22,139 nucleotides of DNA, from IMG/VR virus record IMGVR_UViG_3300036770_002446, positions 1 through 22,139 of that record. One strand, 5' to 3'. Below the pieces are notes generated by a model. That model made no database searches, had not been told where the DNA came from, and worked only from the letters and a program-made list of their open reading frames with translations. A program made the position numbers and the translations under genes. This document shows, piece by piece, positions 9,093 through 10,973 of this stretch. Position 1 is the stretch's first letter; each line of letters starts with the position of its first letter. The DNA is from a virus.

Positions 9093-9233
9093 AAAAAAAT
9101 TTTGCAGAATTTTTTAGGCTCTGTTTTTGTATCAATTTCATTTTTTTAGGGTTCGCCTATAAAATTTTTTTGATATTTTTATTGTAATGCCATTTACTAT
9201 TTTTAGCAAGTGTATGTCTAAAACTCGGGTAAA

Positions 9234-9256
9234 GGGTGGGCCCGAAGGACCCAAGC
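9234..9256 (+). repeat. R-box copy 1 (short form)
   Basis: Reads GGGTGGGCCC followed by eight bases and CAAGC. It lacks one GGGT unit compared with copies 2, 4 and 5 and is the most divergent of five copies (9234, 9327, 10733, 10769, 10847), all in the same orientation and all outside genes. Confidence 0.6.
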
Positions 9257-9326
9257 TACAAAAAAAGGGGGTGGGGGGTCATACAACATCTAGTATACGA
9301 ATCGTCTTGGGACCTCTATGGATTGT

Positions 9327-9353
9327 GGGTGGGTGGGCCCTACGTTCGCAAGC
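9327..9353 (+). repeat. R-box copy 2
   Basis: A 27-base unit: GGGTGGGTGGGCCC, eight variable bases, CAAGC. It is followed five bases later by the palindrome at 9359-9375, in the same order as copy 5 and its palindrome at the other end of the operon. Confidence 0.75.
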
Positions 9354-9358
9354 AGAGG

Positions 9359-9375
9359 TGCGGCATGATGTCGCA
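9359..9375. repeat. Palindrome TGCGGCATGATGTCGCA
   Basis: A 17-base near-palindrome that matches the one at 10890-10906 at 15 of 17 positions. Extending one base outwards gives GTGCG/CGCAC arms. Both copies lie just downstream of an R-box, suggesting a duplicated regulatory module or a protein-binding site. Confidence 0.6.
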
Positions 9376-9466
9376 CCACTACATATGGTGTGTTAATAAA
9401 AAGATATTGCTTGACACTATTCTGACCACGGCCCGTGGATCGCTGTGGATAATTAAATATACTTAC

Positions 9467-9526: not shown

Positions 9527-9916
9527 ATGGCACTACAATTCGATTACACCAAGGTTGCTAACTATAGTAAGTTTAATGACCTTGATCATAAAGATGCATC
9601 TCGATTCGCTTGGGTATTAGCCGCAGTTGATATGAACGAAATTACTAAAAGTAATATTGATGAGATTGCTTTTAGATTAAAGTTCGCTGAGCAATGCGGA
9701 GAAAACTTTTTAATCGGTTCGGTTTCAATTGGTTTAATGAAAGCAACACTTAGATCTTACATTGGATTTAAAACAAATGTAAGAACGGAAACTAGAAAAG
9801 CATATATGTTAAAAATTATGCGAATGGTTGAAAATAAAACAACAGAACTTTTTAAAAAAAAACCATTAAACAATATGGCTGATGACAAAGTTCATCAACA
9901 ATTATTCGGTATATAA
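9527..9916 (+). CDS. Unknown protein, first gene of ribozyme operon
   Basis: The protein has 129 residues behind an AGAAAGGAAA ribosome site. It is polar and mainly helical, with no membrane segment. Recognisable stretches are FNDLDHKDASRFAWVLAAVD (18-37), an IDEIAFRLKFAEQCGENFLI helix and a basic AYMLKIMRMVENKTTELFKKK helix (about 91-111). I do not recognise a family. The stop codon is followed on the very next base by the first hammerhead ribozyme, so self-cleavage would leave this mRNA ending in the ribozyme's stem III hairpin. Confidence 0.8.
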   Translation: MALQFDYTKVANYSKFNDLDHKDASRFAWVLAAVDMNEITKSNIDEIAFRLKFAEQCGENFLIGSVSIGLMKATLRSYIGFKTNVRTETRKAYMLKIMRMVENKTTELFKKKPLNNMADDKVHQQLFGI

Positions 9917-9970
9917 GATCGAAACGCCCCAATTGGGGCGTCCATCGTTTAATACGATGCTGATGAGATC
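9917..9970 (+). ncRNA. Type II hammerhead ribozyme, copy 1
   Basis: All elements of the self-cleaving fold are present in circular order with stem II open. Stem II: GATC 9917-9920 with GATC 9967-9970. Core: GAAA 9921-9924. Stem III: CGCCCC 9925-9930, loop AATT, GGGGCG 9935-9940. Cleavage site: T9941-C9942 (a GUC triplet, cut after C9942; A9924 pairs with U9941). Stem I: CATCGT 9943-9948, loop TTAAT, ACGATG 9954-9959. Core: CTGATGA 9960-9966. Every invariant core base is intact. It starts directly after the stop codon of the previous gene and ends 21 bases before the next ATG. Paired changes relative to copy 2 (10214-10267) support the fold. Activity is inferred from the family. Confidence 0.95.
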
Positions 9971-9991
9971 AGAAACTAAAAAGGAGAATAA

Positions 9992-10213
9992 ATGAAAGAG
10001 CATATAATAATAACTGATGACAAAGGGGTTGAACATATATTCCACGATCTAAAAGAATTAATAAATTATTTAGATAGTTTTAAAATGTCCTTCCTACCAG
10101 ATAACTTTAGCTATGAAATAAAAACAAATAAACTTGATGACTTAGGTTTTAAAAAAGAAGTTATAAGCGAAGGCATTACTTGCTTTACTTTAGACAGTAA
10201 AAATTTTAGATAA
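9992..10213 (+). CDS. Unknown 73-residue protein between two ribozymes
   Basis: The protein has 73 residues, acidic to neutral. It starts MKEHIIITDDKGVEHIFHDL and has alternating beta/helix character: IIITDDKGVEHIF as a hairpin, LKELINYLDSF as a helix, then FSYEIKTN and a C-terminal GITCFTLDSKNF strand. No family is recognised. AAGGAG lies seven bases before the ATG. It is the only gene on the 297-base RNA that cleavage at both hammerheads would release, so its message would be monocistronic with a hairpin at each end. It may need different stability or dosage from its neighbours. Confidence 0.8.
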   Translation: MKEHIIITDDKGVEHIFHDLKELINYLDSFKMSFLPDNFSYEIKTNKLDDLGFKKEVISEGITCFTLDSKNFR

Positions 10214-10267
10214 GATCGAAACGGCCCAATTGGGCCGTCCACCGTTTATTACGGTGCTGATGAGATC
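10214..10267 (+). ncRNA. Type II hammerhead ribozyme, copy 2
   Basis: Same layout as copy 1, again beginning on the base after a stop codon. Stem II GATC 10214-10217 with GATC 10264-10267; GAAA 10218-10221; stem III CGGCCC 10222-10227, AATT, GGGCCG 10232-10237; cleavage triplet ending T10238-C10239; stem I CACCGT 10240-10245, loop TTATT, ACGGTG 10251-10256; CTGATGA 10257-10263. It differs from copy 1 at five positions. Four form two compensatory pair changes (C-G to G-C in stem III, U-A to C-G in stem I) and one is in the stem I loop. The core and flanks (AGAAAC after stem II) are unchanged. This covariation is strong evidence for selected RNA structure. Confidence 0.95.
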
Positions 10268-10288
10268 AGAAACAAGAAAGGAAAGAAA

Positions 10289-10462
10289 ATGGAGTTAATA
10301 GTTGAGAAAAAAAGCGTCTACGGTAATCAGTTAGTTTACCCTATATGCAACAAGGCAAAACTATTCGCATCAATTTCTGGTAATAAAACTTTATTGCCAG
10401 AGGTTATCGAATCAATAAAAAAGTTAGGTTATAAGTTAACAACAAAACAGGAGGTACTATGA
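10289..10462 (+). CDS. 57-residue conserved-type small protein
   Basis: A short gene with AAGGAAA before ATG 10289. The protein contains VYGNQLVYPICNKAKLFA, then SGNKTLLPEVIESIKKLGY. I recognise the order VYGN.L.YP.C..A..FA..(S/T)G.KTL....(I/L)..I..LGY as a small unassigned family found widely in proteobacteria and their phages. Its TGA overlaps the next ATG (ATGA) and an AGGAGG ribosome site lies within its last codons, so the two genes are coupled. Its message would start at the second ribozyme cut and carry the stem I hairpin at its 5' end. Confidence 0.75.
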   Translation: MELIVEKKSVYGNQLVYPICNKAKLFASISGNKTLLPEVIESIKKLGYKLTTKQEVL

Positions 10463-10650
10463 GATCATACCAAGGCTGGAACATTAACAGCCCAGAAAGC
10501 AAAGACGGCAATTGGAGCGTTATTCTAGAGCATAAGCATAGCACTAGAACTCACTTCATAAACTTAAAGAATACCTTAACACTAAAAGAGGTTGAAACTT
10601 TAATATACGATACAATAGACGGCTTAGTCGAGGAAGAATCTAAGCGATAA
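10459..10650 (+). CDS. Unknown 63-residue protein, last gene of ribozyme operon
   Basis: The protein has 63 residues. It starts MRSYQGWNINSPESKDGNWS, continues as strands (WSVILEHKHSTRTHFI) and ends in an acidic helix (KEVETLIYDTIDGLVEEES). The start is set by AGGAGG six bases upstream and the ATGA overlap. The strand-strand-helix order is compatible with a small alpha/beta fold, but no family is recognised. A Rho-independent terminator follows 13 bases after the stop, closing the operon. Confidence 0.75.
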   Translation: MRSYQGWNINSPESKDGNWSVILEHKHSTRTHFINLKNTLTLKEVETLIYDTIDGLVEEESKR

Positions 10651-10662
10651 GACAATCACTAT

Positions 10663-10699
10663 CCACGGGTCGAGATCATCGGCCCGTGGTTTTTCTTTT
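10663..10699 (+). terminator. Rho-independent terminator of ribozyme operon
   Basis: Stem CCACGGG 10663-10669 with CCCGTGG 10683-10689, a 13-base loop and a T-rich tail (TTTTTCTTTT). It sits 13 bases after the last stop codon. Confidence 0.85.
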
Positions 10700-10812: not shown

Positions 10813-10842
10813 CGCGAATCGGTGTTCGCGTTTTGTTTTTTT
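10813..10842 (+). terminator. Second Rho-independent terminator
   Basis: Stem CGCGAA 10813-10818 with TTCGCG 10825-10830, loop TCGGTG, then TTTTGTTTTTTT. It is a classic intrinsic terminator lying between R-box copies 4 and 5, implying that transcription reaches or begins in this repeat block. Confidence 0.75.
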
Positions 10843-10907: not shown

Positions 10908-10973
10908 TGACAGCGGCGCGCGGTTATGCAAACGCGAAGCGTGGCCGGCGATGCGCCGGAGCGTGCGGCGCAA

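Follow-up and report, generated by a model that had tools for sequence, protein, structure and literature searches.

The window analysed here, a 22,139-nt stretch of viral DNA (IMG/VR record IMGVR_UViG_3300036770_002446), has a GC content of 33% and carries on its + strand a short operon in the order 129-aa ORF, type II hammerhead ribozyme 1, 73-aa ORF, ribozyme 2, 57-aa ORF, 63-aa ORF and terminator (Table 1), with the terminase and portal genes lying on the opposite strand. The two hammerheads, both on the coding strand, bound the 73-aa ORF. The terminase was found to be 77–80% identical to the terminases of Pelagibacter phage HTVC027P and phage 023Pt_psg01; judged from these sequences, the window is a relative of the Pelagibacter phages, which makes a SAR11-type host likely. 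Relatives of the 129-aa ORF show 82–88% identity, and the 73-aa ORF is 97–99% identical in three relatives. A comparison of the operon's ORF proteins with Pfam and PHROG gave no match. The 73-aa ORF looks chimeric, its residues 1–47 matching proteins in contigs without a detected hammerhead and its residues 46–73 corresponding to the C-terminus of the 129-aa ORF relative in two contigs (L003 and L005). Just 5' of the operon, a G-rich and GC-rich stretch at 9215–9400, whose surrounding region is 85–90% identical in relatives, had no match in Rfam; it may represent a leader or some other structured RNA that is not translated. Beyond the operon terminator, two more terminator-like hairpins are present on the + strand at 10813–10830 and 10952–10972.

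Table 1. Features of the hammerhead-bearing operon in the window.
Feature	Position	Strand	Remarks
ORF, 129 aa, first gene of operon	9527–9916	+	stop TAA 9914–9916, directly before ribozyme 1
Type II hammerhead ribozyme 1, 54 nt	9917–9970	+	covariance models and fold
Ribozyme 1, stem II (GAUC)	9917–9920 with 9967–9970	+	
Ribozyme 1, GAAA	9921–9924	+	
Ribozyme 1, stem III	9924–9930 with 9935–9941	+	
Ribozyme 1, GUC	9940–9942	+	predicted cut after 9942
Ribozyme 1, stem I	9943–9948 with 9954–9959	+	
Ribozyme 1, CUGAUGA	9960–9966	+	
Alternative hairpin CUGAU-GAG-AUCAG, ribozyme 1	9960–9972	+	predicted to exclude the active core; energies and covariation in relatives
Conserved tail AGAAAC, 3' of stem II, ribozyme 1	9971–9976	+	
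ORF, 73 aa, between the ribozymes	9992–10213	+	stop TAA 10211–10213, directly before ribozyme 2
Type II hammerhead ribozyme 2, 54 nt	10214–10267	+	covariance models and fold
Ribozyme 2, stem II	10214–10217 with 10264–10267	+	
Ribozyme 2, stem III	10221–10227 with 10232–10238	+	
Ribozyme 2, GUC	10237–10239	+	predicted cut after 10239
Ribozyme 2, stem I	10240–10245 with 10251–10256	+	
Ribozyme 2, CUGAUGA	10257–10263	+	
Alternative hairpin CUGAU-GAG-AUCAG, ribozyme 2	10257–10269	+	energies and covariation in relatives
Conserved tail AGAAAC, ribozyme 2	10268–10273	+	
ORF, 57 aa, 3' of ribozyme 2	10289–10462	+	conserved in contig L087
ORF, 63 aa, last gene of operon	10459–10650	+	overlaps 57-aa ORF
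Intrinsic terminator, operon end	10663–10699	+	11-bp stem, 8 G-C, T tract

An initial annotation had placed two type II hammerheads at these positions, and both were located there with support from covariance models and folding. CUGAUGA, GAAA and GUC are present in both copies, as are three helices, of which stem II is open while loops cap stems I and III, as evident from the fold and from covariation in relatives; the expected cut sites had been correctly placed. Folded alone, each 54-nt element adopts the three-stem hammerhead as its lowest-energy structure, with z-scores of −3.8 and −4.0 relative to shuffled sequences. The covariance search of the window with the Rfam type II model, which the initial annotation had proposed, matched both elements: in a local scan with Hammerhead_II (RF02276), copy 2 scored 37.9 bits (E = 8.9e-6), above the gathering score of 37, and copy 1 scored 32.9 bits (E = 1.8e-4), below it. 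An independent covariance model, built from 19 relatives with the window copies excluded, gave 74.9 bits for copy 2 and 74.4 bits for copy 1 (E ~1e-16) and no other significant match. The copies differ at five positions, and the earlier description of these as a pair of compensatory base-pair changes plus a single change in a loop was exactly right: 9927/9938 changes a stem III pair from C-G to G-C, 9945/9957 changes a stem I pair from U-A to C-G, and 9952 is a base of loop I.

A pseudoknot between loop I and the tail 3' of stem II is common in type II hammerheads and is not required. Here, loop I (UUAAU) and the tail AGAAAC can form two pairs, and four (GUUU:AAAC) only if two stem I pairs are opened. 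For a Watson-Crick pseudoknot between the two, no covariation was seen.

A search of related phages for the same motif between genes, as suggested in the initial annotation, found it there, including in multi-copy arrays. The pattern of a GATC stem II followed by the AGAAAC tail was present in 97 stretches in IMG/VR and absent, in this exact form, from the GTDB contigs; the AGAAAC tail is kept in nearly all GATC-type relatives. With broader patterns, at least 357 distinct elements were collected, at least 320 of them in viral contigs and at least 37 in GTDB contigs; they constitute a sample and not a census. A strict descriptor gave 0 matches in 7.06 Mb of reversed sequence, and chance is therefore excluded. 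In a sample drawn without any stem requirement, 53 of 60 distinct sequences conformed with the strict descriptor; inspection by eye of the other seven revealed that stem I is kept and that most have small mismatches in stem III. A search of 50,697 phage records yielded no DNA match to the hammerhead family, a further search returning only short matches at chance level, and the family was not found in HTVC027P, HTVC023P, 023Pt_psg01 or the Brevundimonas phages Polewnik and Strzyga. Most of the TerL relatives examined are without the element, implying that it is dispensable.

Covariation was measured over 23 diverse relatives, the rows of which were pre-selected by the descriptor: 100% of the cells are paired versus 70% after shuffling, with a score of 0.749 versus 0.167, and 10 of the 15 stem pairs have changed on both sides. 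The changes span all three helices; in stem II, for example, UA becomes CG. Stem III has a GC content of 80%, that of the contigs being 32%.

Among the matches listed, arrays of 9, 8, 7, 6 and 5 copies were observed, and the Rfam model (E ≤ 0.05) revealed 11 type II hammerheads within ~5 kb of one 67.6-kb phage (L437; G012:C1:2569-7558), where copies stand in front of many small genes. In another contig (L127:3035-6295), small genes in succession are separated by eight type II hammerheads whose stem II sequences differ, the first of these hammerheads preceding the operon's first gene and not being located behind a stop codon. In six contigs (L098, L134, L142, L147, L155 and L159) the hammerheads are followed by a shared A+T-rich stretch (ttttttat.gttga), and the downstream long ORF is missing in most (five of the six with none).

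The position of the elements relative to the neighbouring genes was found to be strongly recurrent. For sampled elements with enough flank, among the matches listed, the upstream stop codon ends −8 to +2 nt from stem II in 277 of 346 cases; 44 of 955 random sites show such a stop. In 106 of the 346 listed elements stop codon and stem II share exactly one base, with which the former ends and the latter begins (TAG in 93 of these). The next start codon typically lies some 20–30 nt further on, and in 241 of the 346 it is located 15–35 nt past stem II. The downstream genes are very diverse, the 308 proteins falling into 251 clusters among the matches listed, and those flanking genes to which a name could be assigned are of non-structural kinds (DUF932, GP88, ParB-like, HNH and SSB). 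Since the register recurs while the downstream genes are so diverse, we conclude that the ribozyme is a generic intercistronic linker and not a regulator of a single gene.

A second, alternative helix became apparent 3' of the catalytic core. In many short-loop members the tail reads N'UCAG and is complementary to the core CUGAN7, of which N7 is the sole free base; in the GATC family, the complementary AUCAG consists of the 3' strand of stem II and the AG of the tail. Among the short-loop members in the matches listed, the N7:N' combinations were U:A 16, C:G 19, U:G 1, U:U 1 and C:A 1 (Fisher p = 2e-8 for U/C versus A/G with one exception placed per row, a significance overstated by the non-independence of the sequences). 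N7 and N' also switch within single contigs (L127 and L461). A 5-bp match between CUGAN and the tail is present in 58 of 197 non-GATC elements among the matches listed, compared with a mean of 9.8 and a maximum of 19 for shuffled tails. This covariation supports a helix that, as modelled, is incompatible with the active core. Many type II hammerheads are without the N'UCAG tail, and therefore such a hairpin is not universal. For both window copies, the 3' product is predicted to fold into the alternative hairpin, which, with the tail included, is also calculated to lie 0.7 kcal/mol below the hammerhead in the precursor (nearest-neighbour energies, in which tertiary contacts are not modelled), so that uncut RNA could be partly inactive. 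The hairpin is likewise the predicted precursor minimum in each of the 62 GATC-type relatives whose stem-loop I spans 17 nt.

The arrangement of hammerheads around a gene is itself already known. The initial annotation had taken the presence of a copy in each of two neighbouring gaps of a phage operon to be undescribed; this was wrong, as multiple hammerheads flanking single prophage genes were reported by Perreault et al. 2011 (PMC3088659), who showed cleavage for three arrangements. Its interpretation was right in kind, erring on the novelty of the arrangement, and it covered the ribozymes and missed the stop-codon register, the long arrays of the relatives and the core-sequestering hairpin. 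In the prophage clusters of A. tumefaciens (a triple around ardA), Azorhizobium caulinodans and Clostridium scindens, for which cleavage was shown, same-strand hammerheads flank single genes as they do here (PMC3088659); the window, in contrast, is a contig of a marine relative of the Pelagibacter phages, its relatives reach 8–11 copies, and the stop codon touches or shares stem II. Similar tandem arrays cleave in vitro, and one also in E. coli (PMC3088659). In the text of that paper, the largest array that we found is a triple, and a search there for an alternative fold of the CUGAN:N'UCAG kind gave none (PMC3088659). Later work on phage type II arrays was not found in open-access full texts, subscription literature being mostly outside this scope. 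The stop-to-start register, the array length and the covarying alternative helix appear to be new.

With the type II class of RF02276 (PMC3088659) the window copies share the CUGANGA/GAAA core, the UH triplet, the open stem II with closed stems I and III, and the bacterial and phage context. They differ from it in having a 5-nt loop I with no obvious loop I-tail pseudoknot of at least 4 pairs, a tail AUCAG complementary to core CUGAU, and a fixed GAUC/GAUC stem II with the AGAAAC tail. HHphage of haloviruses HF1/HF2, a hammerhead variant 13 nt upstream of a phage start codon for which a transcript 5' end was mapped no more than 3 nt away from the site of cleavage, is comparable in position (PMC3088659), but it has a variant core and occurs as a single copy heading a transcript of an archaeal virus. 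In retrozymes and viroid-like circular RNAs (PMC4918200, PMC7761336) hammerheads likewise bound a short RNA, whereas the window copies are intercistronic in a DNA phage, with no sign of circularisation or replication.

Taken together, we favour, with a probability of about 0.7, the reading that the two type II hammerheads are self-cleaving stop-to-start linkers in a non-structural phage operon, which convert its polycistronic message into single-gene mRNAs and carry a hairpin dismantling their core. Each hammerhead would fold on the nascent + strand message and cut after its GUC, separating the genes. A short way beyond its stop codon, the upstream message would end in the GC-rich stem III hairpin and a 2',3'-cyclic phosphate. 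The downstream message would carry a 5'-OH, and the stem I hairpin with which it begins would lie a short distance ahead of its ribosome binding site. Once the cut is made, core CUGAU would pair with AUCAG and the core would be taken apart; this may free the upstream product and prevent re-ligation, and the new 5' end would be left with a stack of two hairpins. The proposal of the initial annotation that type II hammerheads in this phage operon process its message between cistrons is well supported, and we infer that both copies are active; cleavage would also take place in vivo, and the mRNAs may be stabilised.

The alternative helix could act either after cleavage, in release and against re-ligation, or before it as an off state, as far as its sequence tells. 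The latter underlies a tentative reading, which we regard as rather unlikely, in which the CUGAU:AUCAG hairpin is the pre-cleavage off state, a ribosome terminating at the stop codon next to or within the 5' strand of stem II blocks that stem and thereby favours the hairpin, and the cut occurs only when upstream translation slows. It is consistent with the stop codon abutting or overlapping stem II, with the predicted precursor minimum of both copies and their GATC-type relatives, and with stems I and III being common to both states, which would keep switching local. However, tight stop placement is also seen without the helix, and the fold energies ignore tertiary contacts. Tight stop overlap is associated with the helix across all elements listed (p = 2e-6), but not significantly once the GATC family is left out (p = 0.15): among the matches listed, the overlap is tight in 29 of 52 non-GATC short-loop members with the helix versus 68 of 157 without it. 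That phage type II hammerheads in general are bistable linkers, whose fold is set by the terminating ribosome and which couple operon self-cleavage to translation, is more doubtful still; if true, arrays of up to eleven copies would provide per-gene, translation-tuned mRNA processing without a protein nuclease.

Two further readings concern the linkers as half-sites and as DNA. A 297-nt RNA carrying the 73-aa ORF might be excised by the two cuts and circularised, the GAUC in the 3' half of ribozyme 1 pairing with that in the 5' half of ribozyme 2 to rebuild a ligating hammerhead: both stems II are self-complementary and offer compatible half-sites, and the ends would be 5'-OH and 2',3'-cyclic phosphate. 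We hold this to be the least probable explanation. Neighbouring stems II are incompatible in 43 of 111 array pairs among the matches listed, and fully compatible in only two of seven in L127, so cross-pairing is not under constraint; ligation would be hindered by the alternative hairpin; and circular or spliced products were sought by Perreault et al. with none detected (PMC3088659). It is scarcely more probable that the repeats serve at the DNA level as homology for swapping operon genes, ribozyme activity being incidental. Swapping at the linkers is real: one relative has the 129-aa gene replaced over the stretch from the start codon to ribozyme 1, others have a gene inserted at the ribosome binding site 3' of ribozyme 2, and one identical ribozyme occurs in seven contigs with six upstream and five downstream gene clusters, among the matches listed. 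Yet DNA homology would favour conservation of sequence and not of pairing, whereas the stems stay paired through compensatory changes around fixed core bases; as gene swapping leaves these changes unexplained, this reading is disfavoured.

The favoured reading, self-cleaving linkers between stop and start codons, bears on the job of bacterial and phage hammerheads, a question standing since 2011. To our knowledge, type II is the sole permutation in which each of the two products retains a hairpin, and hairpin-ended products on both sides of the cut are a simple possible reason why type II recurs between phage genes. The stop-to-start placement, the near per-gene arrays and the core-dismantling helix jointly point to intercistronic processing with a release or off state.
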